Source: Sideroxydans sp.
GTDB lineage: Bacteria; Pseudomonadota; Gammaproteobacteria; Burkholderiales; Gallionellaceae
Reading direction: 5' to 3'
Assembly (NCBI GenBank): GCA_024636935.1
Contig: JAGXGC010000004.1
Location: forward strand, 81,287-145,286
Length of the DNA stretch: 64,000 nt
Of the stretch, positions 10,535 to 35,675 are shown one piece after another. Each line of letters opens with the position of its first letter. Position 1 is the first letter of the stretch. A program made the translations under genes and the position numbers. The notes beneath the pieces are model-generated. The model worked only from the letters and a program-made list of their open reading frames with translations, did no database searches and was not told where the DNA came from.

Positions 10535-10571
10535 CGACGAGCGTCGCGTCAGAGCAGATGAGCCTCCGTGA

Positions 10572-11540: not shown

Positions 11541-11647
11541 GTTTGCTATCTCAAAGGATCATTCACGGGCGGCATGATACAACATGCCGTGCGGCAAACC
11601 GAATGGGTTTACATGCTGTAACAAAGGAAATTCTATTTATCAATACC

Positions 11648-13189: not shown

Positions 13190-13218
13190 GCTTGCACCTT
13201 TATTGTTTTGTGATGATT

Positions 13219-14202: not shown

Positions 14203-14274
14203 AGCTGCGAGTTTAGCACTCGCCCCCCTACTGCTTGTGGCACACTAACGCCCGTCAAAAAACAGGGAATCGCC

Positions 14275-15508
14275 TTGCAACCTTTCGAACTGTTCGTCGG
14301 TCTGCGCTACACCCGCGCCAAGCGCCGCAACCACTTCATCTCCTTCATCTCGCTGATCTCCATGCTGGGCATCGGTCTCGGTGTGATGGCGCTGATCGTG
14401 GTGTTATCGGTGATGAATGGTTTCCAGAAAGAGATACGGGCGCGCATCCTCGGCATCACACCGCACCTGCAAGTGCTGGGCAGTGAAGGGATAGCAGATT
14501 GGCAGCGTACGCTGGGAACCGTTGCCACACATCCCGGCATCCGTGCCGCTGCGCCTTATGTCACTGGCCAAGGCATGTTATCGCAAGGTGAGCGTGTGCA
14601 AGGCGTGATGGTGCGCGGCATCCTACCTGCATCCGAACAGCAATTGATCGCGCTCGGCGACAAGATGAAGCACGGCCAACTGGATAGTCTGCAACCCGGC
14701 GAATATAACATCGTGCTGGGCGTCGACCTGGCCCGCGCGCTGGGCGCGCGCGTCGGCGACCCACTCCTACTGATCACCCCGCAAGGGCAATTCACCCCCG
14801 CCGGCATGTTGCCGCGTCTGAAGCAATTCAAGGTGAGTGGCATCTTCGAGATCGGCATGTCGCCCTACGACAACGCTCTGGCGCTGATTCACTTAAAGGA
14901 TGCACAAAAACTCTATCGCATGGGCGAATCGGTGAGTGGCATCAGCGGCAGCGTCAACGACCTCGACCAAGCCCCTCAGATCGCACGTGCACTGGAAGGC
15001 AAGATTCCGGGGGACCTGTGGACCAGCGATTGGACACGACAGAACGCCAGCTATTTCGCAGTGGTAGCGATGGAAAAGAAGATGATGTTCATCATCCTGT
15101 CGCTGATCGTACTGGTCGCCGCGTTCAATATCGTCTCCACGCTGGTGATGGCTGTCACCGACAAGCAGGCCGATATCGCCATCTTGCGCACACTGGGTGC
15201 CTCGCCGCGCAGCATCATGCAGATATTCATGGTGCAAGGGGTATTGATCGGCCTTATCGGCCTGGTAATTGGCGTCCTAGGCGGCGTATTGCTGGCAGTC
15301 AATATCGGCACCCTCGTGCCGTTCATCGAAAATCTTTTTGGCGTGCAGTTTTTAGCTAAGGAGTTCTATTACATCAGCGAACTGCCTTCCGATCTGCGTC
15401 AGAGCGATGTGCTGGTGGTCGCTGGCATGTCGTTCCTGATCAGCGTGCTTGCTACTCTATATCCAAGCTGGCGTGCTTCCAAGGTGCAACCGGCGGAGGC
15501 ATTGAGAT

Positions 15509-15516
<8 letters not shown>
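14275..15516 (+). CDS. lolC: Lipoprotein-releasing ABC transporter permease (LolC/LolE family)
   Basis: The TTG at 14275 is taken as start because the family begins at this point ([20 protein letters not shown]) and AGGGAA lies upstream. The longer reading from 14089 runs antisense through the RpfE-like gene. The 413-residue product has the LolC/E layout: an N-terminal helix ([22 protein letters not shown]), a large periplasmic domain and three C-terminal helices. It extracts mature lipoproteins from the inner membrane for LolA. Only one permease gene is adjacent to lolD, so it may act as a homodimer or pair with a distant gene. Confidence 0.93.
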
Positions 15517-16201
<685 letters not shown>

Positions 16202-16219
16202 GAAGGCCATTCCGATTCG

Positions 16220-16750
16220 TTAGCTGCGATCAGTGCGATGACGCCATTTCCAGATCACAGCCAAGCGCCATGCGACCCGCACGGAAAAATATCCAAGCAG
16301 AGCCAGACCCACTGCCAAAATCGGCAAACCTATAAGCAGTGGCTCGCCTAACGTCATCAGCCACTTCCACAGTTGTTCGAATCCGTCATTCCAATGCAAT
16401 TCGGGAAACTGAGCCACCGGCGTCTTGACAGAGACCCCGGTAACCAACAAGCCGATTTGGTGTGCCAATAGATAGAGTGGAACAATAGTGAAAGGATTGG
16501 TGTAAAGCGTGGCCGCGAGAGACACCGGCAGATTGACGCGCAGCCACATCGCCAAAAAAGCCGCACCCAGCATTTGAAAAGGGCCGGGAATCAAACCGCA
16601 GAACAGACCGATCGCGACCCCTCCCGCCACCGATCGTCTATTCAGATGCCATAGGTTGGGATGTTGGAGCCAATGACGTATCGGTTGCAGCCAGCGATTC
16701 TGCAACACACCCTCACGCCCCGGCAGTCTTGTACTGAAAAATTTGCGCAT
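16220..16750 (-). CDS. DUF2062 membrane protein
   Basis: A 176-residue protein with the DUF2062 pattern: GGVAIGLFCGLIPGPFQMLGAAF, LPVSLAATLYTNPFTIVPLYLLAHQIG, and a closing hydrophobic segment (LLIGLPILAVGLALLGYFSV). It is an inner-membrane protein of unknown function. In betaproteobacteria it commonly sits beside lolCD and comEC, as here. It is transcribed divergently from comEC and convergently with lolD. Confidence 0.88.
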   Translation of the reverse strand: MRKFFSTRLPGREGVLQNRWLQPIRHWLQHPNLWHLNRRSVAGGVAIGLFCGLIPGPFQMLGAAFLAMWLRVNLPVSLAATLYTNPFTIVPLYLLAHQIGLLVTGVSVKTPVAQFPELHWNDGFEQLWKWLMTLGEPLLIGLPILAVGLALLGYFSVRVAWRLAVIWKWRHRTDRS

Positions 16751-16783
16751 GACGGGATTCTAATGCTCGGTTAGGCTAGCCGT

Positions 16784-20849: not shown

Positions 20850-23666
20850 CTAGCGAGCCTGCAATCTTGGCTCAGACAGGTTGCCGGAAAGCGACAGCGG
20901 GTTGTTACCTGCTCGTATCTTGATCTCAGAATTGAAAGCTCCTGACAGCTGACCATCCGCAGCGGCCTCAAAAGTACCCGAAGCCTTCAACATGCCCGAA
21001 GTGATGCGCACACTGCGGAAACGCACTCTTCCGTCTTCAGCTACGAATGATCCATTCAACTCGTCAAAATTGGTGCGCCCTCCAACCAGATGCTCACGAG
21101 TCGCTAAGCGCGCTGTCTCCACCATGTCGATGCCATTGATAACACCCCGCTTGGCCTCGAACGAAGCATCGATACGCAGTGTCTTGGCTAAACTAGAGAG
21201 CGTAGCGGCGTTAGCCATCAATTCCCCATCGACGAATACATCTCCCGATAAGCCATACTGTGGGAACAGTTCAGCCAACTCCATTGTCTTGGCCTGAATG
21301 CTCGCATCGAATTTCCAGCCTCTACTCCAGTTCAATTTGCCTTTTCCAGACCATATCCCTGCGTAAGCATGGGCATCGAGATCGGAGATATTAATCTCGT
21401 TCTCGTTGATCTCGCCCCGCGCATTGAATGAACTGAACATTGCTGAAGGCAACAACGGCAGCACACTATCGCGAATACCAAATGCTATCTGAGTACGATT
21501 TGCCACTACTTTGAGTTCCACATTGAGCTTTTCATCTTCACTGTGCAACACCAAACGTGAAAACTCACCAAGTTCGAAATCTGCCCCACCCTGCAACAAT
21601 GGCACTGCCATAACATCCGTAACAACTTTCAGGTTTCGCAAAGTCACATGCTCAAGCGGAAATTGGGCATCATCTCCCATTCCCTTTAGCCATACTGAGA
21701 CTATGCCAAGGTGCTTTCCGTCCAGCGCCATATCTTGCAACTCAAGATCTTTGATCGTCTTACTGTCAGACAGCAGGGACAACAAATCAAAATTCAGCGT
21801 AGCACTTGAAACGGTCAACTCCCCTGCCGCCCCGATTTTGACATCCCCCAACTCTATCTTAGGCATCGGCAGCAATGCGGCACTCATATTGCCAACCTTC
21901 ACCGGCTGTTTGAATCTTTCTGTCAGTCGCTGTTCGAGCGGCGCCAAATAATCCTGCATAGGCCAGACCAGTGGCAGAACGAAAATAGAGGCGATTCCCA
22001 ACGCAAACATCCCAGCTGCGATCTTGCCTAGCGGAAGTGGATTGCGGCGCCGAACGGCGGTAGATTTTTGTTTGGACTTGGCTTGTTCCAGCGCTGCTTC
22101 CTTAGCAGCTTGTGCAGCATCCAACTTGCTTTGTTGCTCCGCACGTTGCTCTGCTTCTGCCCAAGCACTCTCTTGCTCAGCAGCCAAAGCCTGCTCTTCT
22201 TCCTGAGCTTGAGCCTCTTGTTTGGCACGCAATATTTCCGCTTCTTGCTCAGCCTTCAAGCGGGCCATTTCGGCAGCGATATCCTGTTTCGCTTCGACAT
22301 CTTTATGCTTGCTCGTTGTTTCAACAGCAGGTGATTTTTGGGGCACCTCAGATGGGGCCGGTCGTGCTAGCTCATCAGCAGCAGTATTTGAATCCATAGA
22401 GCTCAGCGCAGCCAAATCAATCTGGAATCCGACAGGAGCGGCTTCCTCTTTAGATTCTTCCTCCTTGAGATCTGCTTCTGCTTCTGCTTCCGCCTTTGCC
22501 TTCTCTGCAGCTTCTTGCGCTGCCTTGATACGTGCTGCCTCGGCTTCAGCTTTCAGTCGAGCCTCTTCCTCAGCTTTGGCGCGTTCTGCGGCCTCTTGCT
22601 CTGCTTTAATACGCGCTTCCTCAGCTTTGGCGCGTTCTGCGGCTTCTTGTTCTGCTTTAATGCGCGCTGCCTCTGCCTTGGCTTTCTCGACTGCTTCCTG
22701 CTCTGCTTTCAAGCGTACGGCTTCTGCTTCCGCCTTTGCCTTCTCTGCGGCCTCTTGCTCTGCTTTAATACGCGCTGCCTCCGCCTTGGCTTTCTCGGCT
22801 GCTTCCTGCTCAGCTTTCAAGCGTGTGGCTTCTGCTTCCGCCTTTGCCTTCTCTGCAGCCTCTTGTTCTTCCTTGATACGCGCTGCTTCGGCTTCAGCTT
22901 TCAGTCGAGCCGCTTCCTCAGCTTTGGCGCGTTCTGCGGCCTCTTGCTCTGCTTTAATACGCGCTGCCTCCGCCTTGGCTTTCTCGGCTGCTTCCTGCTC
23001 AGCTTTCAAGCGCGCGGCGTCCTCTTCTTTTGCTCGCGCTTCAGCTTCAGCCTTGGCGCTTGCAGCCGCTTCCTGCTCAGCTTTGATACGTGCCGCCTCT
23101 GCTTCCTGCTTTGCACGCTCCTCTGCCAGCGCCTTGGCTTTAGCGGCTTCCAGCTCCGCCTTGATGCGTGCGGCTTCTTGTTCAGCCTTTAATTTTGCAG
23201 CCTCAGCTTCAGCCTTTGCTTTTGCCTCCGCTTCAGCTTTCAGCTTTGCGGCTTCCTGACTTGCTTTGAGTTTTTCTGCTTCCTGTGCAGCTTTCGCATT
23301 TGCGGCTTCCGCTGCTAATGCAGCCGGATCAGGTGCAACAAACATACTTGTGAAATCCAACTCCTCGCCAGCCGGCTCAGTATTAGGAGTCACGACCTTA
23401 GGCGCAGCGACCTTTGGCGCCACGATCTTGGGACCCGCATGTACAACTTTTGATTTATCGCGTATCAGTTCCGAATCAAGCAGGCGCTGAATAATCTCTG
23501 GCAGATCACCACGCAAACTTGGAGGCGCGCGTTTGATAACTTCATCAAAAGTTGATTTTCCATCTATCAGCAATAGGACGCGCTTCATATCCCCGGACAT
23601 GCCGGAAACTTCGCTTTCACCCTTATTGGTTTTAATTAATATTGTTTTCTTATCCATGTCGCCCAT
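20850..23666 (-). CDS. Membrane protein with N-terminal small domain, long Ala/Lys/Glu coiled coil and AsmA-like C-terminal domain
   Basis: The start is either ATG 23666 or ATG 23657; neither has a strong binding site, and an ORF to 23711 is longer than needed. The product has about 938 residues in four parts. A soluble N-terminal domain (about 1-75; SGDMKRVLLLIDGKSTFDEV) comes first, then a proline/valine linker. A very long charged helix of imperfect KAEQEAAEKAKAEAARI repeats spans roughly 120-410. A single membrane helix lies near 546-568 (GMFALGIASIFVLPLVWP). A periplasmic AsmA-like region follows (LEQRLTERFKQPVKVGN; ARGEINENEINISDLDA; GLSGDVFVDGELMA). AsmA-type proteins are linked to envelope lipid transport; this fusion has no obvious named counterpart. 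Confidence 0.8.
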   Translation of the reverse strand: MGDMDKKTILIKTNKGESEVSGMSGDMKRVLLLIDGKSTFDEVIKRAPPSLRGDLPEIIQRLLDSELIRDKSKVVHAGPKIVAPKVAAPKVVTPNTEPAGEELDFTSMFVAPDPAALAAEAANAKAAQEAEKLKASQEAAKLKAEAEAKAKAEAEAAKLKAEQEAARIKAELEAAKAKALAEERAKQEAEAARIKAEQEAAASAKAEAEARAKEEDAARLKAEQEAAEKAKAEAARIKAEQEAAERAKAEEAARLKAEAEAARIKEEQEAAEKAKAEAEATRLKAEQEAAEKAKAEAARIKAEQEAAEKAKAEAEAVRLKAEQEAVEKAKAEAARIKAEQEAAERAKAEEARIKAEQEAAERAKAEEEARLKAEAEAARIKAAQEAAEKAKAEAEAEADLKEEESKEEAAPVGFQIDLAALSSMDSNTAADELARPAPSEVPQKSPAVETTSKHKDVEAKQDIAAEMARLKAEQEAEILRAKQEAQAQEEEQALAAEQESAWAEAEQRAEQQSKLDAAQAAKEAALEQAKSKQKSTAVRRRNPLPLGKIAAGMFALGIASIFVLPLVWPMQDYLAPLEQRLTERFKQPVKVGNMSAALLPMPKIELGDVKIGAAGELTVSSATLNFDLLSLLSDSKTIKDLELQDMALDGKHLGIVSVWLKGMGDDAQFPLEHVTLRNLKVVTDVMAVPLLQGGADFELGEFSRLVLHSEDEKLNVELKVVANRTQIAFGIRDSVLPLLPSAMFSSFNARGEINENEINISDLDAHAYAGIWSGKGKLNWSRGWKFDASIQAKTMELAELFPQYGLSGDVFVDGELMANAATLSSLAKTLRIDASFEAKRGVINGIDMVETARLATREHLVGGRTNFDELNGSFVAEDGRVRFRSVRITSGMLKASGTFEAAADGQLSGAFNSEIKIRAGNNPLSLSGNLSEPRLQAR
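22485..23300 (-). repeat. Imperfect in-frame repeats encoding an Ala/Lys/Glu coiled coil
   Basis: Blocks such as GCTTTCTCGGCTGCTTCCTG and GCGCGTTCTGCGGCCTCTTG recur many times inside the gene at 20850-23666. They encode variants of KAEQEAAEKAKAEAARI. The opposite strand is also open across most of this region because of the biased codons, producing long spurious frames. Confidence 0.85.
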
Positions 23667-23737
23667 TGTAATTGGATTAGATTGGATACACACAGCCAAG
23701 TCAGACGCCAATAATACTTAATATTTCACCATCAATG

Positions 23738-24924: not shown

Positions 24925-25133
24925 ACGCTCCTCCTGCACAATGGTCGTGTGACAAGCCCATTAATCAACGAATACAGAATTACCATTGAATCTAAATCTA
25001 GACTGGTGATCCGATAAGTCTGTTGCGACGGAGGAAATATCACTCAAGTGAACTGGCAAGTCCATATGCCGTTTGGCCTATATACATACATATATACAGG
25101 CATATATATAAAGCATCTGAATGAAGAAGCAAA

Positions 25134-25157
25134 AAGGCCCGCATTTCTGCGGGCCTT
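25134..25157 (-). terminator. Original tRNA-Lys terminator, displaced by the integrated element
   Basis: Perfect inverted repeat AAGGCCCGC / GCGGGCCTT with a 6-base loop. On the minus strand it is followed by TTTTT and preceded, six bases upstream, by the orphaned 3' end of tRNA-Lys (25163-25210). This is where the terminator of an intact minus-strand tRNA-Lys would lie. The intact tRNA is now 8.6 kb away. Confidence 0.75.
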
Positions 25158-25162
25158 AATTT

Positions 25163-25210
25163 TTTGGTGGGTCGTGCGGGGATCGAACCTGCGACAAACG
25201 GATTAAGAGT
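25163..25210. repeat. Left attachment-site repeat (displaced 3' half of tRNA-Lys)
   Basis: These 48 bases are identical to 33747-33794. They cover the tRNA-Lys sequence from the anticodon loop to the CCA end, on the minus strand. The identity stops sharply after AGAGT, where this copy continues TCTTTTCC. The usual att of tyrosine integrases using tRNA genes is the anticodon-loop-to-3'-end block. Confidence 0.93.
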
Positions 25211-25245
25211 TCTTTTCCTATAGCATTTATCTAGCTTTACCTACT

Positions 25246-25351
25246 CCATGTAAGCACTATAAAGCTTGATTTTACTAGCCTTGCGAGTATCATTTAATCC
25301 GCTTGTCCTGTATTTGGTTTTATTTAATCTGCTTACATGGTGCTTACATGG
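25246..25351. promoter_or_regulatory. Candidate integrase arm-type sites (TGCTTACATGG repeats)
   Basis: TGCTTACATGG occurs twice in tandem at 25330-25340 and 25341-25351, and once inverted at 25246-25256. A 10/11 match (CGCTTACATGG) lies near the other end at 33693-33703. Positions between the att repeat and the integrase gene suggest arm sites for integrase or excisionase; this is inference. No gene is seen between 24925 and 25378 apart from these sites, the att copy and the terminator. Confidence 0.5.
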
Positions 25352-25378
25352 CACTTACGCGATGCGAAAGGGTTGGCT

Positions 25379-26659
25379 ATGAAACTGACAAAGACAGCCG
25401 TTGAAAAACTGGAAATCCCGGCAACTGGCCAAGCCCTGTATTGGGACGATGAATTGCCCGGCTACGGCGTGCGCGTGACCGCATCGGGCGTGCGCTCATA
25501 TATCGTGCAAGGCCGAGCCAATGGCAAAGAGCGGCGCGTCACCATCGGGCAGCATGGCAAACCTATCAGCGCGACAGAAACGCTGACCGCCGACAAAGCG
25601 CGCAAGCTGGCCATGGGGTTGATTGCATCACTCAGCGGAGGGGTTGATCCAGTCGTTGAAAAGGAACGCGCTCAATCGCTTGCAGTGACGCTGCAAGACG
25701 TTTGCGATGTGTACCTGAAAGAGCGCCGCACCGCGAAAGGCGGCGAACTGACACCGCGCACCAAGGCAGACATTAAGCGGCATATCGAAAAAAGTTTTTC
25801 GGACTGGAAGGACAAGCCAGTCGCGAACATCACTCGCGATAAGTGTTCGGTGAAATTCACAGAACTATCAGCCAAGGGCGCAACGCAAGCGAATCAGGCC
25901 TTTCGTATCTTGCGCGCGCTGCTGAACTACGCCCGCGAAGCATATCGACCTGGCGGCATGCCGATCCTGTTGGAAAATCCTGTTTCGGTTGTGTCAGGCA
26001 AGAAGATGTGGAACCCGAACAACGCCAAGAACGGGCGCATACCACTCGACAAGGTTGGCGCAGTGTGGAATCTGCTGCAACATAAGCGCACCGATGATGC
26101 ACTGCTGCAAAGCACGCGCACGGGCGCGGATATAGTGCTGTTCCTGATGCTGACCGGTTGCCGCTGGAGTGAGGCCGCACAACTGACTTGGGATCGAGTA
26201 AATCTAACCGATGGGACGTGGCATATACCAGATCCAAAGAATCACAACGAAGTGACCTTCCCTATTCCTGCACCACTGCGCGAAATGCTGGAAGCTAGGC
26301 CACGCATCGAAAAGAATCCCTATGTGTTCCCGTCACGCTTAAAGGATGCAGGCGGATACCTGAACAACGCGCTGCCGACCATGAAGCAAGTTTCCACTGT
26401 TGCCGGGATGCACCTGACCCCGCATGACCTGCGCCGTACCTTCGTTGCAATCGGAATAAAGAACAATCTCGAAATGTGGAAGCTCAAGCTACTCACGAAC
26501 CACGTCATACAGGACGATGTGACCATCACGAACTACACCGAGACAAACGACCTGCGCTATCTATCCGGCGAGGCTGAAACGATTGCAGCGTGGATCGTGG
26601 AGCAAGGGAAAATCGCTGCCGGTGCGAACGTTGTTCAACTCCGCGAGGTGGCGGCATGA
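25379..26659 (+). CDS. int: Tyrosine recombinase / P4-type integrase
   Basis: The start is ATG 25379 (MKLTKTAVEKLEIPATGQ). The 426-residue protein has the P4-integrase layout. An N-terminal DUF4102-like arm-binding domain (about 1-95; YWDDELPGYGVRV) precedes a core-binding domain (about 100-205) and a catalytic domain. Visible catalytic elements are the first Arg (LTGCRWSEAAQLTW), HDLRR (LTPHDLRRTF) and the closing Tyr in TITNY. It lies next to the displaced att copy, at the end opposite intact tRNA-Lys. It overlaps the next gene (ATGA). Confidence 0.93.
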   Translation: MKLTKTAVEKLEIPATGQALYWDDELPGYGVRVTASGVRSYIVQGRANGKERRVTIGQHGKPISATETLTADKARKLAMGLIASLSGGVDPVVEKERAQSLAVTLQDVCDVYLKERRTAKGGELTPRTKADIKRHIEKSFSDWKDKPVANITRDKCSVKFTELSAKGATQANQAFRILRALLNYAREAYRPGGMPILLENPVSVVSGKKMWNPNNAKNGRIPLDKVGAVWNLLQHKRTDDALLQSTRTGADIVLFLMLTGCRWSEAAQLTWDRVNLTDGTWHIPDPKNHNEVTFPIPAPLREMLEARPRIEKNPYVFPSRLKDAGGYLNNALPTMKQVSTVAGMHLTPHDLRRTFVAIGIKNNLEMWKLKLLTNHVIQDDVTITNYTETNDLRYLSGEAETIAAWIVEQGKIAAGANVVQLREVAA

Positions 26660-27234
26660 GTAAAGACATGACACACATTGAAACTGACGGGGTGCTTGCG
26701 TGGGAAGTAAAACAACACACCAAGAATGAGCCGGATTTTATAGAAGCACTCAAGCAAGAAATTTTCAATCGTTCGCCAGAAGGGCGAATATGCAGTCTGA
26801 AAAGTTTTCTCGCATCAATCGAATCAATTGACGAGCGTTTCACAGTTAGGCGCGATGAGTTATCTGAGCAGATAACGAAAGCAGAAAAAGCCATAGCAAG
26901 CGAAGACATTACAGAATGCCACATGGATAAAACTTATCTTTTAGAACTGGCAGAAAGGAAGATGGATGAAATTATCGCATTGCCGCTCGCATTATCTGGC
27001 GTGGGATCAGCTAATGGCGGCAAACTTGGTCGAGAGAACCGCGACAAAAACATCGAACCAACAAAAGAAGCATGGCGCAACGCAGCAAAAACTATACTAG
27101 CCACCCGCAAGCGCCCGCCTACAGCGCGTAATCTTGCGCGTTTAGTGGCATCTAAATTGCACCCACAAGCTAACGAGGGGGAAATCAATAAACTTGCAGA
27201 CAGTCGCAGAAAATGGATTGCTGACATGCTCTAA
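26656..27234 (+). CDS. Hypothetical protein coupled to the integrase
   Basis: The start is the ATG at 26656, overlapping the integrase stop by four bases. The 192-residue, highly charged, mostly helical product (RDELSEQITKAEKAIASEDI) ends in a region rich in basic residues (ATRKRPPTARNLARLVASKL; DSRRKWIADML) that could bind DNA. No family is recognised. Translational coupling suggests a role with the integrase or in control of the element. Confidence 0.7.
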   Translation: MSKDMTHIETDGVLAWEVKQHTKNEPDFIEALKQEIFNRSPEGRICSLKSFLASIESIDERFTVRRDELSEQITKAEKAIASEDITECHMDKTYLLELAERKMDEIIALPLALSGVGSANGGKLGRENRDKNIEPTKEAWRNAAKTILATRKRPPTARNLARLVASKLHPQANEGEINKLADSRRKWIADML

Positions 27235-27327
27235 CTGCATATCGTGGGAATCTAGCCGCATCAATCCCAAACTGCTGTTTTAATAAGGTTTTACAGTGCA
27301 TGCCTCAACTCAAGGAGGCATCGCAAA

Positions 27328-27528
27328 ATGAAACACACCCTAGTAGCAACTCCCGAAGCCGCAAAATATATCGGCGGCATCAAGCCCACAACGATGGAAA
27401 TATGGCGAGTCCAAGGTGTCGGGCCGCGTTACATAAAATGTGGCCGCCTTGTCCGTTACCGCATTGATGACCTAGACGCATACCTCGAAGCACAAACACG
27501 CACCTCGACCAGTCAAGCGAGGTGCTGA
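27328..27528 (+). CDS. AlpA-like helix-turn-helix regulator / excisionase
   Basis: A 66-residue protein with a MerR/AlpA-like winged helix: VATPEAAKYIGGIKPTTMEIW, GPRYIKCGRLVRYRIDDLDAYL. AlpA proteins activate integrase or act as excisionases in P4-like satellites and PICIs. An AAGGAGG site lies upstream. The gene is two bases from the next. Confidence 0.88.
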   Translation: MKHTLVATPEAAKYIGGIKPTTMEIWRVQGVGPRYIKCGRLVRYRIDDLDAYLEAQTRTSTSQARC

Positions 27529-27529
27529 T

Positions 27530-27967
27530 ATGAACGATCCAAAACAAAACGCCGCTGGGGGCAGCGGCGCGAAGTCGAATTTACTGAGCGCAAAATCAAC
27601 TGCCGAGCATTATAGCCCCAAGGGCTATAAGTTCAACCATACGGCCTTCCTGTGCCAATCCGCTGGCGATATTGCCCTGCTGTATCTATCCGCCGCACAA
27701 GTGGCGAACGGACAGACATGCGGCGATCCTGCCGAGATATTGCGTGCAGTGCGGCGCATTGTTTCATCACTTGCACAGCACGAACCGAAATATGCGCACG
27801 GCCAATTGTTTGCGCCGATAGGCTACCCGTGCGGATGGCGCACCGGGACATATCGGCCTGGCACATGCAAGGCGCACTGGTGTCCTACTTTCGAGCTGAT
27901 GGACGGCGAAGAGGTGCTGGGCGACTGCCGCTTGGCTTACTCAAGCAAGGCGGTGCGCCATGGATAG
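27530..27967 (+). CDS. Hypothetical protein of the satellite element
   Basis: A 145-residue protein with six Cys residues, two of them in CKAHWC. Its C-terminal half (LFAPIGYPCGWRTGTYRPGT) has no match I recognise. It follows the AlpA-like gene by one base and overlaps the primase-helicase start by eight bases, so it belongs to the replication operon. The spaced Cys and His residues could bind a metal; that is conjecture. Confidence 0.7.
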   Translation: MNDPKQNAAGGSGAKSNLLSAKSTAEHYSPKGYKFNHTAFLCQSAGDIALLYLSAAQVANGQTCGDPAEILRAVRRIVSSLAQHEPKYAHGQLFAPIGYPCGWRTGTYRPGTCKAHWCPTFELMDGEEVLGDCRLAYSSKAVRHG

Positions 27968-30266
27968 CCCGCAACCCTCCCTTGCTGTTGTGCCTGATGT
28001 CGCTAATTTGCATGAAGCGCTGCGCTTCCTAGATGCGCTCGCACCTGACGGGCATGTAACTTTCCAGACGTTCGATGACAGCAAGGACAAAGACCCTTCG
28101 TTAGCGCGAATCCTACATGGCACGCTTGAGCAACACGCCCCCGAACTTACTCGACTGAACCAAAAAGGCGCAGGGGTGTTCGTCATGGTTAATCGTGGCG
28201 ATGGGCGAGGTCGCAAGGCTGGGAATGTTTGCGCCGTTCGTGCGCTGTTCGCCGATGCTGACGGCGCACCACTCGAACCGCTTATGAATTACGCGCCATT
28301 CCTGACAGTCGAATCGAGTCCGGGGCGCTATCACGCATATTTTAAAGTGATCGACTGCCCGATTGACCAATTCACCGCAATGCAAACATCCATTGCAAGT
28401 AAGTTTGGCAGCGATCCGAATGTGAAAGACTTGCCTCGCGTAATGCGGCTGCCTGGTTTCCTTCACCGAAAGTGTGCGCCATTTATGACCCGCATTCTGA
28501 CTGTGCAGGATGCGTCACCTATCGCACTAAAGGATTTTGAATCCTTGATGGGATTCGATCCCGCGCTGACTGTGCAGGATTCAACACCTCGCCCGCTACT
28601 GAATGTCGATTCCCAGCCATACACGCCGAACGATATGAAAGAAGAGGCGCGCAGGCGCATAACTCAAATCATGACAAATGCGAAACCGGGCGAGCGTCAT
28701 GCAGCGCGTTTAAGAGCAGGCAAGCTGGCTGGCGGATTCATTGCGGGGGGCATACTTGAGCACGATGCAACGATGCAACTTTTGCACGCGGTATCGGATG
28801 ACATTTGTGATGAAAGCGAGACCGATACACCGTACACGGAATGGCAGGCAGTGCTGGATGGCGTTACGTCCGGCTTGAACGATCCGCTACCCAACATTCG
28901 AAAATCACTAGACACCAGTTCCATAGGCTTCGGGCAAGTTCCACTGCCTGCAGGTGTGCTTGCTGTGCCACCGCCGCCACCGCCGCCCTATGCTGCATTC
29001 CCTACGCCAGATCCGATAATGCTGGCCGAGTGGGTAAGCGCTAAATCGACACCGCCATGCATCGTGCAGGATTATCTGTTCGCTGATGTGGCCGTGTTCA
29101 TCGCACCGGGCGGCATGGGCAAGACTACCCTCAAGCTATTCGAGGCGATTCACATTTCACTAGGCTTTCCGCTATACGGATTGACGGTACATAAGCCCGG
29201 CACGGTGCTGATTATTACATCAGAAGATAGCCGCGAGATGCTTGTCGCCCGCCTCCGCGCAATCACGATTGCCATGCAGCTCCCCCCTGCTGATGTTGCT
29301 ACTGTGATGCAGCGCGTTCGCATTGCCGATGTATCAGGCAACGGATTCAAACTGACCGAGGTGCGCGGCGATGTTGTGATGCCGAGCATCGGAATAGAGC
29401 AAATCATTGCGGCTTGCCAAACACTCCGGCCGGTGCTGATTGTCATTGATCCAGCCGTTTCATTCGGCGTGGGCGAGTCTCGCGTCAATGATGCAGAACA
29501 AGGGCTGGTGGAAGCCGCCAGAAAGCTCCGCAAAGCGTTAGATTGCTGCGTCCAGTACATCCATCACAGTGGCAAACAGAACGCCCGTGATAAGGCTGTA
29601 GACCAATATGCAGGCCGTGGCGGTAGTGCCTTCGCTGATGGCGCGCGCATGGTTCATGTCCTACAAAGTCTTACCCCAGACGAGTGGCACAACGAAACCG
29701 GCACAGAATTGCACCCCGGCGAGACTGGCTTACGCCTAGCACGCCCGAAAATGTCCTACTGCGCGCCAGTGGGCGACATATTGATCCGGCGCAAAGGGCA
29801 TCACTTCGAGCATGTTGTGCGCGTCACGACGAGCACACAGTCAAAGGTCGAAGCTGCTGCAAATCAGGTTTGGCAATTCCTGACCGCTGAATTGAGCCAA
29901 GGCCGCTATCACTCGAAGAACACACTTGAATCACAGATGCCGGGATTGAAGCGCAACGAATTGCGCGCTGCGCTCGACCTGTTGACGGTATCCCTTCGGA
30001 TTGAATCTCGTGATGTGCCGAATGCCGGAAAGGGAGGAAAGCGTTCCTATTTGCACCCGATTGCCTCGCCAAACGGGGCGGCGAACCAAAGCGAAAAAAC
30101 GCTCGAAAATGCAAAAACGCTCGCCAGCGAAAATTCAGTTTTTGGTTCGCCGCCGCCTATAGGGAATTCAACGGCGGCGAACCTACCGCCACCGTTTGAA
30201 CCCTCCTTTTCCTACGGTTCGCCAAATATGCACGGCGAACCAATGGCGAACCTTGCGAGGCAATAA
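27960..30266 (+). CDS. Primase-helicase (RepB-type PrimPol plus RecA-like AAA ATPase)
   Basis: A 768-residue replication protein. Residues about 60-200 form a RepB-like primase: ALFADADG with the metal-binding Asp pair, VESSPGRYHAYFKV, and DPNVKDLPRVMRLPGFLHRK. A proline-rich linker (AVPPPPPPPYAAFP) leads to a RecA/AAA_25 helicase domain (about 360-600) with Walker A GGMGKTT, IITSEDSREM, and Walker B LIVIDPAVSF. A winged-helix-like segment follows (VWQFLTAELSQGRYHSKNTL). This pairing is the pri-rep of phage satellites and some plasmids and implies self-directed replication after excision. The replication origin was not located. Confidence 0.88.
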   Translation: MDSPQPSLAVVPDVANLHEALRFLDALAPDGHVTFQTFDDSKDKDPSLARILHGTLEQHAPELTRLNQKGAGVFVMVNRGDGRGRKAGNVCAVRALFADADGAPLEPLMNYAPFLTVESSPGRYHAYFKVIDCPIDQFTAMQTSIASKFGSDPNVKDLPRVMRLPGFLHRKCAPFMTRILTVQDASPIALKDFESLMGFDPALTVQDSTPRPLLNVDSQPYTPNDMKEEARRRITQIMTNAKPGERHAARLRAGKLAGGFIAGGILEHDATMQLLHAVSDDICDESETDTPYTEWQAVLDGVTSGLNDPLPNIRKSLDTSSIGFGQVPLPAGVLAVPPPPPPPYAAFPTPDPIMLAEWVSAKSTPPCIVQDYLFADVAVFIAPGGMGKTTLKLFEAIHISLGFPLYGLTVHKPGTVLIITSEDSREMLVARLRAITIAMQLPPADVATVMQRVRIADVSGNGFKLTEVRGDVVMPSIGIEQIIAACQTLRPVLIVIDPAVSFGVGESRVNDAEQGLVEAARKLRKALDCCVQYIHHSGKQNARDKAVDQYAGRGGSAFADGARMVHVLQSLTPDEWHNETGTELHPGETGLRLARPKMSYCAPVGDILIRRKGHHFEHVVRVTTSTQSKVEAAANQVWQFLTAELSQGRYHSKNTLESQMPGLKRNELRAALDLLTVSLRIESRDVPNAGKGGKRSYLHPIASPNGAANQSEKTLENAKTLASENSVFGSPPPIGNSTAANLPPPFEPSFSYGSPNMHGEPMANLARQ

Positions 30267-30330
30267 ATAACACCGAGCGTTTTAGCGCTGCCAGTCGCAT
30301 TACTGGTAATCACTGAGAAAGGATCAGCAC

Positions 30331-30522
30331 ATGGAAAGAGCAACAGTACGGCGATCATCACGCACAAGACCGGCCACCGAGAATCCCGAATTCTTGGAGT
30401 ACCTGCACCGAGAAAACATATCACTCGAAGAATGGCAAAAGCGGCAACGTGCAAACGCTGGCGATGCTGATACTCAAGCGCTTCGCCTCGCACGTCGAAA
30501 ACTGCAACAGCCGAAACGATAG
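30331..30522 (+). CDS. Small basic hypothetical protein
   Basis: A 63-residue Arg-rich product (RATVRRSSRTRPATENPEFL; LARRKLQQPKR) with an AAAGGA site eight bases upstream. Its middle (EYLHRENISLEEWQKRQRAN) is predicted helical. It lies between the primase-helicase and a 223-residue unknown gene, all in the same direction. No family is recognised. Confidence 0.6.
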   Translation: MERATVRRSSRTRPATENPEFLEYLHRENISLEEWQKRQRANAGDADTQALRLARRKLQQPKR

Positions 30523-30578
30523 AACAACGGGGGAGCCGCAGCCCGTTCACTTGCGGCGACACTATGAAGGAATACACC

Positions 30579-31250
30579 ATGGAACAATCAATAATTAGCC
30601 TCGACCGCGATCCTCGATATGTTGCGGCGCGCACCAGATACACAGACTTGCAGTATGAATTGTCCGGTCTCGACAGCCAGTTAAATGCCGCATATGGCGG
30701 CCTTTGCTCACTGACAGATCATCGCGACATTATTAGAGATGAGGCGTCGGCGCTTTTATCAGGCGCTACACCCGCCCCCGCTTCGGATCGAGCAGCGGTA
30801 ATCAAGACCATTGATGACCTGACGCATCGGATTGCTGTGCTGAGGCAAGCCGTTGAAATGCAGCGCGGTATCGTGGGCAAGCTGCATGCAGAAGTGGGCA
30901 ACGCTATCGCCTCGGAATTTCTGCCCCAACACACAGCCAATGTTGCAGCAATCGTTGAAGCTGCAATCACTTTATCGACGGCGCTACAGGCAGAACAGGA
31001 GCTACGCGACACTCTCACGGAAAACGATGTGTCATTCTCTTCGATTTTGCGCGCGATGCCGCTGCCAGGTTTCTCGCTCAAGGACGATCAGAGCCGCCTG
31101 AGCCGCTACCTGTTGGAGTGCCACGAGTTCGGCTTCATCAAAGCATCGGCGCTGCCGGACGTGGTGCGCGAACGCCTACCACGTAAAGCAAAGCCGACGC
31201 CGACACCCGGCACACAGGCCGCCAACGGTGAAGGCTGGCTGGCAGCGTGA
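30579..31250 (+). CDS. Hypothetical coiled-coil protein
   Basis: The ATG at 30579 (MEQSIISLDRDP) has AAGGA seven bases upstream and is preferred over the ATG at 30564. The 223-residue product has two helical stretches with heptad character (YTDLQYELSGLDSQLNAAYG; DDLTHRIAVLRQAVEMQRGI). It ends in a basic Pro-rich tail (LPRKAKPTPTPGT). No family is recognised. It is the last gene before the terS region. Confidence 0.7.
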   Translation: MEQSIISLDRDPRYVAARTRYTDLQYELSGLDSQLNAAYGGLCSLTDHRDIIRDEASALLSGATPAPASDRAAVIKTIDDLTHRIAVLRQAVEMQRGIVGKLHAEVGNAIASEFLPQHTANVAAIVEAAITLSTALQAEQELRDTLTENDVSFSSILRAMPLPGFSLKDDQSRLSRYLLECHEFGFIKASALPDVVRERLPRKAKPTPTPGTQAANGEGWLAA

Positions 31251-31328
31251 CCATGTTCGCAGCCGCAACGATCCGATGTACCAAGCGACAGGACACCCCT
31301 TCGCAGATTGAGGCGGCTGCACCTATAG

Positions 31329-31382
31329 GGGTGGGGGTACAAATTCTTCACAACTTTCGTATTGAAAAGACCGCCCTTAGCC
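31329..31382 (+). repeat. Repeat copy 1 upstream of the P27-type terS
   Basis: This 54-base segment aligns with 31987-32041 with a few substitutions and small gaps; GGGGTACAAATTC is identical in both. It lies about 50 bases before the P27-type terS gene. Its partner lies about 40 bases before the second terS gene. It may be a packaging (cos/pac) site, an operator, or both. Confidence 0.75.
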
Positions 31383-31434
31383 TTTCAGTTAACGCAATGA
31401 AGGATTCGCTTACAAAAATTTGGGAGCATGACCG

Positions 31435-31761
31435 ATGAAAAAATTACACAACGCACCACCCAGCTTGTCCGCTGCTGCAAAAACATGGTGGAAAAAATTG
31501 ATTGATGAATACGCTATCGAGGACGCAGCAGGATTGTTACTTCTCGAAACGGCGCTTCAAGCGTTCGACCGTATGCACGATGCACGCGCCCTGATAAAAA
31601 AGCATGGAGCCGTGACTTTAGACCGCTTCGATCAATTGCGCCCCAATCCTGCCACCACTATCGAAAGAGACAGCCGCGCCGCCATGTGCGCCGCGCTCAA
31701 GGCGCTGAATCTTGACCTTGAACCATTGCGTGACGGCGTAGGCCGACCGGCGGGAGGATGA
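31435..31761 (+). CDS. terS: P27-family phage terminase small subunit
   Basis: A 108-residue protein matching the Terminase_4/P27 family: PPSLSAAAKTWWKKLIDEY, LLLETALQAFDRMHDARALI, and the closing RPNPATTIERDSRAAMCAAL, LNLDLEPL. It recognises phage DNA and directs it to the large terminase. It is shorter than typical phage P27 proteins because the basic N-terminal region is missing. No large subunit is present in the element, so it would need to act with a helper phage's enzyme. Confidence 0.85.
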   Translation: MKKLHNAPPSLSAAAKTWWKKLIDEYAIEDAAGLLLLETALQAFDRMHDARALIKKHGAVTLDRFDQLRPNPATTIERDSRAAMCAALKALNLDLEPLRDGVGRPAGG

Positions 31762-31765
31762 CACC

Positions 31766-31969
31766 ATGCCAACTAATCGCAAACGCACACGCCGTGGCCG
31801 CAACCTTGACGAAGGAATGTATCCGGCACAGGTGATGCACGCCACACAGGGCGATTGCTGCCTTGCCGGTGAGTGGCTAGGCTGCGCCTGTGGGCTTCGC
31901 GGCGCGGACGGTAAAGAGCGCGAAGACCTGATTCGCCAGATCAAGGCGCGCGCATCGGAAGGTGAATAG
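31766..31969 (+). CDS. Small Cys-containing hypothetical protein between the two terS genes
   Basis: A 67-residue protein with a GGAGGA site upstream and a 4-base gap after the first terS. It has four Cys residues (QGDCCLAGEWLGCACGLRG) in a compact cluster and a basic N-terminus (NRKRTRRGRNLDEG). The cluster suggests a small zinc-binding domain, but no family is recognised. Confidence 0.65.
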   Translation: MPTNRKRTRRGRNLDEGMYPAQVMHATQGDCCLAGEWLGCACGLRGADGKEREDLIRQIKARASEGE

Positions 31970-31986
31970 TCACGCTCAAGCCATAC

Positions 31987-32041
31987 GGGTAGGGGTACAA
32001 ATTCCTCACAGCTTTTCATATTGCTAGACCGCTCTCCAGCC
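31987..32041 (+). repeat. Repeat copy 2 upstream of the Terminase_2-type terS
   Basis: Partner of 31329-31382. Conserved blocks in order are GGGGTACAAATTC, TCACA, CTTT, TATTG, AGACCGC and AGCC. The spacing to the downstream terS start is about 40 bases. Confidence 0.75.
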
Positions 32042-32080
32042 CATCCGTAGAGAAAATTCCATCTTGAGAGGTTGCTAATT

Positions 32081-32515
32081 ATGATTATTTTGACCACCAA
32101 ACAAACCGACTTTATCAAAGCCTACCTTATTGGAAATGACGGGAAGCAGGCGGCAATCGCGGCTGGCTATAGCGCTGCAAGTGCTGGGGTGGAATGTTGC
32201 CGCCTGCTAAAGAATCCGCGCATCGTTGCTGAACTTGCCCGAATAAAAGCACTGCCGCCCGCCTCACCGGGCAAGCCGCTGGACACTGCCGATCAATCGC
32301 CAATGGGTTACCTGCTAGGAATAATGCGGGACGAACGAGCCGAACCAGCCTTGCGTATGCTGGCCGCTGCCAAACTGTTGCCATTCATGCACTCGAAGGC
32401 TGGCGAGAAGGGAAAAAAGGAAGAACGCCAAGCGGCTGGCGAGAAAGCTGCATCAGGCAAGTTTGCAGTGCCAAGCGCGCCACGGCTTGCTGTAGTCACG
32501 CAGTTACACGACTAA
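32081..32515 (+). CDS. terS: Terminase_2-family phage terminase small subunit
   Basis: The start is ATG 32081 (MIILTTKQTDFIKAYL), with GAGAGG upstream. The 144-residue protein has the N-terminal helix-turn-helix fold of Terminase_2: TKQTDFIKAYLIGNDGKQAA, AAGYSAASAGVECCRLLKNP, VAELARIKA. The C-terminal half is a Lys/Ala/Glu-rich oligomerisation-like region (KAGEKGKKEERQAAGEKAA). It is unrelated in sequence to the P27-type protein 320 bases upstream. Two terS families in one small element is unusual. Confidence 0.87.
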   Translation: MIILTTKQTDFIKAYLIGNDGKQAAIAAGYSAASAGVECCRLLKNPRIVAELARIKALPPASPGKPLDTADQSPMGYLLGIMRDERAEPALRMLAAAKLLPFMHSKAGEKGKKEERQAAGEKAASGKFAVPSAPRLAVVTQLHD

Positions 32516-32572
32516 CCCGCACACATCGTTACCGAGCGGCACAAACCGACGACCAAAGACGAGAACTGGAGT

Positions 32573-32677
32573 TTATTTTTTTAAATATATCAAGTGCAGC
32601 GGGATTGTGATTAACAGCAGCCAGAAGCCCAAGAAGCATGCAACGATGTGCAGCGCGATGAATATTTTGCTTTCCAT
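32573..32677 (-). CDS. 34-residue membrane protein
   Basis: The minus strand encodes 34 residues beginning MESKIFIALHIVACFLGFW and ending PLHLIYLKK, stopping at TAA (32573-32575). AAAGGG lies seven bases before the ATG, and the product is one clean membrane helix with charged ends. It is too short for most gene finders. It lies between terS and the secreted protein gene, on the strand opposite to the core genes, like a cargo gene. No family is recognised. Confidence 0.55.
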   Translation of the reverse strand: MESKIFIALHIVACFLGFWLLLITIPLHLIYLKK

Positions 32678-32796
32678 GCTAGAACCCTTTTTTGTTGAAG
32701 TGGATTGCTTCCATATTTCCTGATATGTCTAAAAGGTTACTTGACAGTGACTACCATTCTCCCGCCTTTGTCTTCAATCTCGTACTCATACTTGAA

Positions 32797-33372
32797 TCAC
32801 CAATTGTCACTTGCTGTTTTCATAACGCACTGACTGATGTTATCACTCAATTTTTCTAGCTCGTCACGAGCGTCTTCCCATCCAGTGCCCCATGATTTTC
32901 GAGCCTTCATATACCCAGAATTACTGCCTGACCCTGTGCTTTTTTGAAGGTATTCGATGTTGGAGTGTTTGATTTTAAATCTACCATCCTTGGCTTGAAA
33001 TAGCACTGTGCTCTTTACGTTTTTAGCCAAAAAACTGCTTCTATAGTCCACCCTGCTGTTCGCTGTGACCGTGCCACCATCAAGGTCGAAATCAACAATA
33101 ACAGATCCACCTGTTATCCCATCAGACTTTCCTTCGCTACTCATAGAAGCGAACGTCGGTATAAATCCAGTAGAAGACGATCCTTCGATTCTTACTTCAT
33201 CATTCTTAAGTATTTGAGCCATGCAAGTCTTAGCTCGTTTTGTGATCTCTGTTGTAGTGCCTGTGGCTTGAACAACATCGGACTCCACAATATCAAGGTA
33301 CTCCGTCTCAGCAAGCGAGATTGCAGGGATGCTGACTGCAATAGCAAATATCAGGAAGGTGGTTTTTTTCAT
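32797..33372 (-). CDS. Secreted hypothetical protein, possibly DUF4468-like
   Basis: A 191-residue protein with a cleavable signal peptide (LIFAIAVSIPAISLAE) and a GGAG site upstream. The mature part (VVQATGTTTEITKRAKTCMA; ITGGSVIVDFDLDGGTVTAN; RVDYRSSFLAKNVKSTVLFQ) recalls periplasmic DUF4468 TBP-fold proteins, but the match is by eye only. It is encoded on the minus strand at the right end of the element, where satellites usually carry accessory genes. The 375 bases upstream hold its presumed promoter, a doubtful 44-codon ORF and the tRNA-Lys terminator. Confidence 0.65.
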   Translation of the reverse strand: MKKTTFLIFAIAVSIPAISLAETEYLDIVESDVVQATGTTTEITKRAKTCMAQILKNDEVRIEGSSSTGFIPTFASMSSEGKSDGITGGSVIVDFDLDGGTVTANSRVDYRSSFLAKNVKSTVLFQAKDGRFKIKHSNIEYLQKSTGSGSNSGYMKARKSWGTGWEDARDELEKLSDNISQCVMKTASDNW

Positions 33373-33579
33373 TGAAATTATCTCCGTTACTGGCCAATTG
33401 TAGCCAGTGGTAATGAATCTATCAGCAATAGCTTCGTTTGAACATATGCCAAAAGATATAGGTCCGGCCTATATATATCTGAGCGTCTGCTTTGGAGAGT
33501 GAGTGAGAATGTCTGTTACTAGGGACTGCGTAATCAGCAATCCACCAGAGTCCGCTATGGCCGAAGAATAGGATATCCA

Positions 33580-33714
33580 TGTCATCTGAAAAATACGCCG
33601 AGGGTGATGCGGTTGTTCGATTACCTAAAGCATTTGAATCAGATTCAAGACCTTGCTATGTGAGCAAAGCTTCACTCAGACTGCTTACTTATCGCTTACA
33701 TGGCCAGAAATGAA
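33580..33714 (+). CDS. Doubtful 44-residue ORF
   Basis: ATG 33580 has AGGA five bases upstream and opens 44 codons (MSSEKYAEGDAVVRLPKAFE) to a TGA at 33712. It overlaps the arm-like site at 33693 and the terminator hairpin, which argues against a real gene. It is listed because the region otherwise holds little. Confidence 0.25.
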
Positions 33715-33740
33715 AAATGGCCTGCATCGCTACAAGCCAT
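33713..33740 (-). terminator. Element-borne replacement terminator for tRNA-Lys
   Basis: Inverted repeat ATGGCCTG / CAAGCCAT (8 pairs including one G-U) with an 8-base loop. On the minus strand it ends in TTTTT, nine bases after the CCA of intact tRNA-Lys. It lies inside the element, so the element supplies a terminator in place of the one it displaced to 25134-25157. Confidence 0.7.
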
Positions 33741-33746
33741 ATTCTA

Positions 33747-33794
33747 TTTGGTGGGTCGTGCGGGGATCGAACCTGCGACAAACGGATTAAGAGT
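33747..33794. repeat. Right attachment-site repeat within intact tRNA-Lys
   Basis: Identical over 48 bases to 25163-25210. This copy continues into the 5' half of the tRNA (CCGCTGCTC on the plus strand) and therefore lies in the functional gene. Confidence 0.93.
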
Positions 33795-33824
33795 CCGCTG
33801 CTCTACCAGCTGAGCTAACGACCC
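33749..33824 (-). tRNA. tRNA-Lys (anticodon CUU)
   Basis: A 76-base cloverleaf on the minus strand with encoded CCA. It has GGGTCGT / ACGACCC as acceptor stem, AGCTCAGCTGGTAGAGC in the D arm, anticodon loop CTCTTAA (CTT) and T arm GCAGGTTCGATCCCCGC (mismatches absent in the stem core). It serves as the integration site of the 8.6-kb element, which restored its 3' half. Confidence 0.97.
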
Positions 33825-34460: not shown

Positions 34461-35675
34461 ATGCGCAAAAAAATACCGGTTCAAAACATCAAGATCGGCA
34501 TGTTTATCCACGAACTGTGTGGAAGTTGGATGGATCACCCGTTCTGGCGAAAATCCTTCCTACTGGATAGCGAGGCAGACCTAAAAACCATTCGCACCTG
34601 TGGTATTCAGGAAGTTTGGATAGATCCAACCCGAGGTCTGGATGTGGAGGGCGACGTTGTCGCCGTATCCGATGAAGAAGCCGAACTGGAGATTGCAGCC
34701 GAACTGGATCGAATAACCAAGGCAAAGCCCAAAAGCGAAGCGCGGGTTTCACTGCATGATGAGCTGGCAAGGGCACGCCAGCTACAGGCTAAAAGCAAAG
34801 CCGCCGTCACTTCGATGTTCCAGGAAGCACGCATGGGCAATGCCATCAAGGTCAGCGAAGCGGCACCGCTGGTGGAAGAGATCAGCAAATCCATCACCCG
34901 CAATCCAGAAGCCTTCCTCAATCTATCCCGACTCAAGACTAAAGACGATTACACCTACATGCATTCGGTCGCGGTCTGCGCACTGATGATCGCGCTTGGA
35001 AAACAACTCGGGCTGGAAGAGGATGACCTCAAAGAAGCTGGGCTGGCGGGATTGCTGCATGACGTCGGTAAGATGATGGTGGATCAGGACGTACTGAACA
35101 AACCAGGTAAGTTGACCGACGAAGAGTTCGAGCTGATCAAGGATCACCCTCGCAAAGGCTGGGAGATACTACAAGGATCCAGCGACATTACTGCCACAGC
35201 TCTGGATGTATGCCTGCACCATCATGAACGCATGGACGGAAAAGGTTATCCAGATAAATTGGCCGGTGAGCAATTATCATTGTTCGCGCGCATGGGTGCA
35301 GTGTGCGATGTATACGATGCCCTTACATCCAATCGTTGCTACAAGAACGGCTGGGAGCCGGCCGAGACCATCCGCAAGATGGCGGAATGGCGCAACGGCC
35401 ATTTTGACGAGCGCGTATTCCAAGCCTTTGTTAAAACCATCGGCATCTATCCATCGGGCACCCTAGTAAGGCTCAAGTCAGGAAGACTCGCTATAGTCAT
35501 GGAGCAAACAGAAAAAAGCCTGCTTTCACCTATCGTTAAAGTCTTTTTTTCGACCAAGTCCAACGAACCGATCATGCCTGAAATGCTAGACTTGGGACGT
35601 TCGCAGGAAAGTATTGTCAGCGCTGAAGATCCAAGCAATTGGGGCTTTGACCTGAAGCAAATCACCGGCATATAG
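34461..35675 (+). CDS. HD-GYP domain cyclic-di-GMP phosphodiesterase with DUF3391
   Basis: A 404-residue protein. The N-terminal DUF3391 domain (about 1-130; VQNIKIGMFIHELCGSWMDH, DPTRGLDV) is followed by a helical linker and an HD-GYP domain (about 165-330). Catalytic motifs are HDVGKMMVDQDVLNKPGKL and HHERMDGKGYPDKL. Such enzymes hydrolyse c-di-GMP to pGpG or GMP, opposing the GGDEF protein at 59954. It is followed at 25 bases by acs. Confidence 0.92.
   Translation: MRKKIPVQNIKIGMFIHELCGSWMDHPFWRKSFLLDSEADLKTIRTCGIQEVWIDPTRGLDVEGDVVAVSDEEAELEIAAELDRITKAKPKSEARVSLHDELARARQLQAKSKAAVTSMFQEARMGNAIKVSEAAPLVEEISKSITRNPEAFLNLSRLKTKDDYTYMHSVAVCALMIALGKQLGLEEDDLKEAGLAGLLHDVGKMMVDQDVLNKPGKLTDEEFELIKDHPRKGWEILQGSSDITATALDVCLHHHERMDGKGYPDKLAGEQLSLFARMGAVCDVYDALTSNRCYKNGWEPAETIRKMAEWRNGHFDERVFQAFVKTIGIYPSGTLVRLKSGRLAIVMEQTEKSLLSPIVKVFFSTKSNEPIMPEMLDLGRSQESIVSAEDPSNWGFDLKQITGI

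Follow-up and report, generated by a model that had tools for sequence, protein, structure and literature searches.

Two cos-like sites, each followed by its own small terminase gene, in a candidate phage satellite integrated in tRNA-Lys of Sideroxydans

Several described systems bear on how a phage satellite may be packaged through a cohesive-end (cos) site. EcCICFT073, as presented in the accessible parts of its literature, has two cos sites with lambda-like cosQ and cosN, a cosB unlike that of its helper and a single adaptor, Rpp (PMC6092414, PMC6739421, PMC9026076), and it has been argued to enter full-size capsids, with the terminase passing successive cos sites (PMC6092414). Here we present an integrated element of about 8.6 kb from Sideroxydans sp. 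(family Gallionellaceae; GenBank assembly GCA_024636935.1). It lies in a 64,000-nucleotide stretch of contig JAGXGC010000004.1 (positions 81,287 to 145,286), referred to below as the window, whose own numbering is used for all coordinates in it. In this element, two different small terminase (TerS) genes each appear to follow their own cos site of the kind found in phages HK97 and D3. On balance we regard it as probably an integrated cos-type satellite, whose packaging would be redirected by two self-coded modules in series, cos1-TerS1 and cos2-TerS2.

The element resembles EcCICFT073 in its int, alpA and primase genes, in the absence of capsid genes, in the presence of two cos sites and in the presumed use of a satellite protein to steer the terminase. 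According to the available accounts, EcCICFT073 employs a single RppA that needs the helper TerS, has no TerS homologue of its own and carries cos of the lambda type, whereas the window element has two TerS proteins, each beside its own HK97/D3-like cos. The cos-type Staphylococcus aureus pathogenicity islands (SaPIs) SaPIbov4 and SaPIbov5 are likewise satellites with a phage cos that are packed by cos phages, but they are Gram-positive, use small capsids and keep only the 3′ part of the SaPI terS, and the accessible text describes no complete terS pair (PMC5052747). A likeness to the capsid-forming phage-inducible chromosomal islands (cf-PICIs), as far as the available sections describe them (PMC10690885, PMC11389934), is that relatives of TerS1 adjoin capsid genes in the satellite-like loci L017, L147 and L303; the window element differs in having no recognised capsid, portal, large terminase (TerL) or HNH gene.

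The cos sites of phages HK97, D3, fEg-Aba01 and Bcep176 share with those described here a G-run, an A-rich stretch, GACC or ACACC, a cohesive end and a terS gene soon after, and the phages differ in having TerL after or near terS. The TerS of HK97 is reported, in the parts available, to recognise a G at position 21 and the A-tract, and cleavage to be stimulated by gp74, an HNH protein; the overhang is given as 10 nt, 3′ (PMC11331095, PMC9410871), and as 12 nt in the discussion of PMC9410871. No other satellite with a TerS for each cos was found in the literature accessible to us, whose coverage of subscription journals is poor. The novelty would thus lie in the paired cos-TerS modules, within a satellite architecture that parallels EcCICFT073 but apparently with another type of cos.

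Two cos-like sites and their TerS genes

An imperfect 42-nt repeat (81% identity), absent from the first-pass annotation of this locus, occurs at 31316 and 31974, one copy ahead of each terS gene, and resembles both the region 5′ of phage terS genes and the record ends of HK97, D3 and fEg-Aba01. The exact pattern of the two repeats, tried as a query, had no match in viral_contigs. Both predicted sites are on the plus strand: cos1 (31326..31433) comprises a left half (31326-31371), a predicted 10-nt cohesive end (31372-31381) and a right half extending up to TerS1, and cos2 (31984..32080) comprises a left half (31984-32029), a predicted 10-nt cohesive end (32030-32039) and a right half extending up to TerS2.

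A phage-only cos profile, containing nothing from the window, was built from 80 viral-contig relatives of TerS2, among the matches listed, of 421 confirmed. Eight were dropped for a missing or unsuitable upstream stretch (L086, L091, L097, L114, L115, L119, L123 and L133); the anchor word was present in 71 of the remaining 72, the exception being L075, and 59 sequences were kept at less than 80% mutual identity. The single significant match of this profile in the 64 kb was cos2 (31992-32066, E = 0.0011; next best E = 1.5), which thus has the signature of the HK97/D3 kind 5′ of a terS gene. With E values for control and locus matches computed for 0.13 Mb, the profile found the site of fEg-Aba01, whose record annotates a 3′ cohesive end, at 3.9e-14, that of D3 at 1.2e-6 and that of HK97 weakly at 0.011, and it also matched loci L042, L043 and L045.

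The full profile did not detect cos1, which we take as a cos site because of its place and its likeness to cos2: the local alignment of the two scores 54, against a maximum of 35 in 20,000 random element pairs with the known repeats excluded. A left-half profile of 67 sequences ranked cos1 first in the window (E = 1.1) and cos2 second (E = 2.4), cos2 being absent with the 59-sequence version; a right-half phage profile placed cos2 only third (E = 1.8) and did not show cos1. With model R1, in which the two window sites and three satellite sites are included, cos2 scored 2.8e-7 and cos1 0.017 in the window, values that are partly self-matches. A TTAACGC common to the right half of cos1 and the HK97 cos was discarded, as 398 of 20,000 random element stretches do as well. 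The two repeats might instead be regulatory sites ahead of two transcription units, a reading to which their position upstream of two genes and the weakness of cos1 by profile lend something; we consider it very unlikely, given that phages show the same signature, namely where the records of HK97, D3 and fEg-Aba01 end and, in the 59 viral contigs that make up the profile, 5′ to the terS gene.

TerS1 (31435..31761, plus strand, 108 aa) is assigned to the P27-type small terminases by Terminase_4 (2e-5; 25.3 bits, barely above the cut-off of 24.7), phrog_83 and an AlphaFold2 (AF2) model with a predicted local distance difference test (pLDDT) score of 81.6. The model has 14 viral matches at E ≤ 0.001, which are small terminases where named. 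TerS1 has no match among phage records; its profile found none among PDB chains at E ≤ 0.1, and a fold search of the PDB was weak, the best hit being HK97 TerS (E = 0.36). Filing TerS1 with the TerS of HK97 or D3 was considered and rejected, since the former has no Pfam family and the latter matches Terminase_4 below the cut-off. TerS2 (32081..32515, plus strand, start codon picked by eye) matches Terminase_2 (3.8e-12) and phrog_641 (4.9e-33), is 40% identical to the TerS of Bcep176, and has a profile whose N-terminal part is matched by solved small terminases. The two proteins do not match each other at E ≤ 1 and, as judged by these family assignments, are members of unrelated families. TerS2 was matched in 5 of 158 genomes of the family, and TerS1 in 2 of 158 genomes of the family, 3 of 399 of the order and 2 of 369 of the class (own genome included each time), while an alignment search of genome_contigs with TerS1 gave no relatives.

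Mosaic cos sites in two elements

A probable second element with both modules was found in a genome of another genus (G119), distributed over two contigs. One (C144, locus L045) has orf9 and cos2 together with the C-terminal half of terS1 and the beginning of terS2, which a transposase gene interrupts; the other (C132, locus L313) has cos1 and the N-terminal half of terS1 in addition to genes for an integrase, AlpA, a primase and a Phage_capsid protein. Neither contig gave a match to TerL or portal. Both terS1 halves stop at one and the same codon, and next to each lies a fragment of an antisense primase gene, so we take them as one broken gene. The G119 cos2 is significant with the phage-only profile (5.5e-6). 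Between the window and G119, the nonsynonymous (dN) and synonymous (dS) divergences are 0.069 and 0.731 for a part of TerS1 (55 codons), 0.260 and 0.897 for orf9 (62 codons), and 0.261 and 1.533 for a part of TerS2 (47 codons).

The four sites were compared in two parts, a left one of 46 nt up to the predicted cohesive end and a right one from +11 to +62. Left halves score 27.0 and 19.5 within elements, 10.0 and 5.5 between orthologues and 7.5 and 7.0 in cross pairs, and right halves show the opposite order, with −9.5 and −2.0 within elements, 13.0 and 28.5 between orthologues and −5.5 and −4.0 in cross pairs (including the cohesive end: −5.5 and 1.5, 19.0 and 35.0, 0.0 and −1.0, respectively). 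This split was at first chosen by us; the best single break was then sought by a four-way alignment given no position. In the cos1 stretch it lies between bases 40 and 52, at most 6 nt from where the cohesive end is predicted to begin (after base 46). Left of the break, 23 of 26 informative columns join the sites of one element and 3 join orthologues; right of it, the counts are 0 and 26. Comparing phage left halves in 1,711 pairs gave scores of at least 27 in 6, 19.5 in 30, 10 in 293 and 5.5 in 722, so that left halves of orthologous sites resemble each other no more closely than those of many phage pairs, unlike left halves of the same element. The cos sites of both elements are, in their aligned sequences, mosaics joined near the predicted cohesive end.

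The insertion, the gene set, the two cos-like sites that each precede a terS gene and the mosaic can be read directly from the sequence; from these features we infer the function of the modules, the type of helper and the use of both modules. An infecting phage with an HK97/D3-like cos would trigger the element, Int and AlpA would excise it, and the primase/AAA protein would copy it; the TerL of the helper, with its HNH nuclease, would then pack it into helper particles. The left half of each cos would be read by the cutting machine of the helper and the right half bound by the neighbouring TerS, which would account for left halves that are alike and right halves that differ. Since the element measures 8.6 kb and no capsid-resizing gene was recognised, it is likely packed as multimers into full-size heads.

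A more specific proposal, which we offer only tentatively, is that one cutter serves two adaptors, the two left halves evolving in concert with each other, matched to the TerL and HNH protein of whichever helper is current, while the right halves are locked to their own TerS. A cos site would then be a two-part lock, whose parts are inherited separately and joined at the cohesive end, and a left half could possibly be joined to a foreign right half by packaging from one cos to the other. If true, such an arrangement would explain in general terms why two different cos sites are found in some satellites. With an own adaptor for each cos, two proteins and two short DNA sites would be enough to test the question of two packaging signals. 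The mosaic could alternatively stem from concerted evolution by recombination, which may act together with selection.

The pair of modules could also serve to extend the range of helpers, with cos1-TerS1 recruiting the TerL of one kind of cos phage and cos2-TerS2 that of phages with a Terminase_2-type TerS. Such a role would suit two TerS from unrelated families; moreover, the TerL proteins of D3/HK97 and Bcep176/Alize are 21-24% identical over long alignments, so that one TerS is unlikely to suit both, and D3 scores best with the left half of cos1 among the 61 phage sites compared. However, in each element the two left halves resemble one another instead of each pointing to a separate phage lineage, and we think the idea rather unlikely. 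Another explanation holds that cos2-TerS2 was gained by recombination at cos and that only one module works, the other being a remnant, or else a decoy which, like Rpp, interferes with the helper. A parallel exists in EcCICFT073, where, by the accounts available, cos1 and not cos2 is essential for transfer, though both are reported functional. Yet both terS genes of the window element are open, with dS well above dN relative to G119, and the left halves stayed alike in two lineages; a relict is to our mind unlikely, and a little more so than helper-range extension.

Several observations weigh against two working cos-TerS modules in series. Only two elements with both modules are known, the second of them broken and on two contigs; that C144 and C132 form one element, and hence that the G119 cos sites are linked, we infer, and with the phage-only profile the G119 cos1 falls short of significance (E = 0.42). 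That profile is not sharp, in view of the poor score of the HK97 site. The window cos1 is the top window match of the 59-sequence left-half profile but at E = 1.1 is not significant alone, and the family-wide search with R1, under stricter filters, lists cos2 and not the window cos1. The dN and dS values derive from parts of TerS1 and TerS2 only, and the likeness of the left halves could reflect gene conversion without function. Finally, the first-pass annotation had proposed looking for a helper prophage with a matching terminase in the same genome, and none emerged there (no phrog_2 TerL in an assembly about 95% complete). In the phrog_2 search of 15 genomes, 10 including this one gave no TerL, and the best matches in the other five ranged from 1.1e-23 to 0.006.

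Insertion in tRNA-Lys, gene content and affiliation

The element is a real insertion of about 8.6 kb in tRNA-Lys. A repeat search found two 48-nt attachment (att) repeats (no strand assigned) at 25163-25210 and 33747-33794, with 8,584 nt between copies; they are identical at 48 of 48 positions, in agreement with the perfect repeats reported by the first-pass annotation. The right copy lies inside tRNA-Lys(CTT) (33749..33824, minus strand; ARAGORN and Rfam) and equals its 3′ part; the tRNA is kept whole by the element. The left copy is the displaced native 3′ end of the tRNA, because 25131-25162 aligns with tRNA-adjoining sequence in relatives (in L050 and L052, the end of the tRNA and its flank can be aligned to 25131-25210).

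A flank search of 34 genomes of the same genus was followed by retrieval of four loci (L049 to L052). In L049, L050 and L052, homology to the left flank reaches an intact tRNA-Lys and the element is absent; L051 has the tRNA and the right flank, its left flank being unaligned; and no element protein matched at any of the four. An integrase 76% identical adjoins the same att sequence in a genome of another genus (G136; L046, where the contig is cut off), and a different element uses this tRNA end in G056. The latter (L041, 7322-18077) carries an integrase, AlpA and a primase and lies next to tRNA-Lys(CTT); part of the tRNA end is repeated at 18027-18077, and neither cos nor TerS was matched. 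Att sites that prophages never occupy are among the PICI (phage-inducible chromosomal island) criteria; here the other users of the tRNA end or att sequence that were seen, in G056 and G136, are integrase elements. In L049 to L051, about 5.5 kb separate tRNA-Lys from the gene corresponding to 34461-35675, which we take to be HD-GYP-like, and this sequence is missing in the window genome (33824-34461). Further upstream, window 20850-23711 encodes a long protein with a Lys/Glu/Ala-rich repeat region that gives many partial repeat matches with relatives.

Genes from the integrase through TerS2 are all on the plus strand. The tyrosine integrase (25379..26659; Phage_integrase 8.5e-13, Arm-DNA-bind_3 8.8e-10) is followed by orf2 (26659..27234, no family above cut-off), an AlpA-type excisionase/regulator (27328..27528; HTH_17 9.4e-7, phrog_66 5e-6) and orf4 (27530..27967), which has no family and a weak match beside alpA in L313 (8e-6). 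A RepB-type primase/AAA ATPase fusion, a predicted replication protein, occupies 27960..30266 (RepB_primase 1.7e-10, AAA_25 1.1e-22), with no relatives found in genome_contigs or viral_contigs; within its gene, at 28497-28613, two 48-nt stretches 73% identical lie 69 nt apart. Then come orf6 (30331..30522, no family) and orf7 (30564..31250), the latter of unknown function with a homologue in a satellite-like locus of the genus (L291, 6994-7674; phmmer 3e-62). Between the two cos-TerS modules lies orf9 (31766..31969), of unknown function and conserved in L045 (66%). On the minus strand, orf11 (32797..33372, 191 aa), a possible accessory gene, matches only phrog_29243 (unknown function) and no Pfam or PADLOC family.

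The integrase, AlpA-type regulator, RepB-primase fusion and terS genes, two in number, named by the first-pass annotation are thus borne out by Pfam and PHROGs matches. Its statement that structural and lysis genes are lacking also agrees with the scans: no such family was matched by the 10 plus-strand open reading frames (ORFs) in Pfam and PHROGs, the two TerS apart, and TerL and portal profiles gave nothing in the window at E ≤ 1e-3. The same annotation called the element similar to phage-inducible chromosomal islands (PICIs). The core set is present, namely an integrase at one end, an AlpA-type regulator and a primase module, following the definition in the accessible text of PMC6092414; the size of 8,584 bp is below the roughly 15 kb that this text states as typical, not obligatory, for Gram-positive PICIs. 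The divergent pair of regulatory genes of Gram-positive PICIs is lacking, and no helper-interference gene was recognised in the element, known PICI gene sets not having been compared. Neither the own capsid, portal and large terminase of a cf-PICI nor the late genes, or remains of them, of a prophage were recognised in the element. Its gene content is most consistent with a phage satellite functioning like a PICI and carrying genes of its own for replication and for redirecting packaging; its membership among the PICIs is at most putative.

Related cos sites in the family

Matches to R1 at E ≤ 0.05 occur in 35 of 158 genomes of the family, many of them weak or partial. At 1e-5 there are 16 strong sites in 11 of the 158 genomes (4 of the 16 are part of R1), with an integrase recognised at 10. 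At all 16, the flanks examined gave no match to TerL or portal; at four sites, three of them in G049 and G119, a contig end left one flank short. In control loci from phages, D3 and HK97 included, the TerL profile detected TerL in 11 of 11, and TerL plus portal turned up in 4 of another 8 loci, apparently prophages. These results point to recurrence, in one bacterial family, of elements that bear a cos and lack TerL, and the sequence signature offers a means of finding them where gene content is uninformative.

These loci also speak to whether the window element is a decayed prophage that kept genes for integration, replication and the start of packaging. Its terS genes and cos sites are phage-like, and no helper was found in its own genome; but its att repeats are perfect, its core genes open, no TerL, portal or other late gene was recognised, and the strong family sites likewise gave no TerL or portal match, all of which makes decay extremely unlikely. 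A fuller relative with both large terminase and capsid genes, which the first-pass annotation had named as the mark of a decayed prophage, did not appear in the stretches examined: a capsid gene stands beside related cos/TerS modules in L274, L147, L303, L017 and L313, never with a TerL match. Judging by their genes, these loci look like capsid-carrying satellites rather than prophages.

Some further loci were noted. L274, L147, L303 and L313 combine an integrase, a Phage_capsid-like gene and cos-like sites, the latter recognised by profile in L274, on visual inspection in L147 and L303, and weakly in L313. In the Sideroxydans genome itself, outside the window, a second satellite-like stretch (C18:214162-222005; L310, 10162-18005) lies at tRNA-Arg(CCT), with an integrase, a primase-like protein of the DUF927 kind and a cos-like site that the phage-only profile matches at E = 1e-3; neither a TerS match nor an att repeat was found there. 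At L043 (G040, 4374-17728), tRNA-Met adjoins an integrase, a primase, a cos and a short TerS; type I restriction-modification genes come next and are possibly defence cargo. In L277 (G178), two cos-like sites at 9955-10276 lie in opposite orientation about 200 nt apart.

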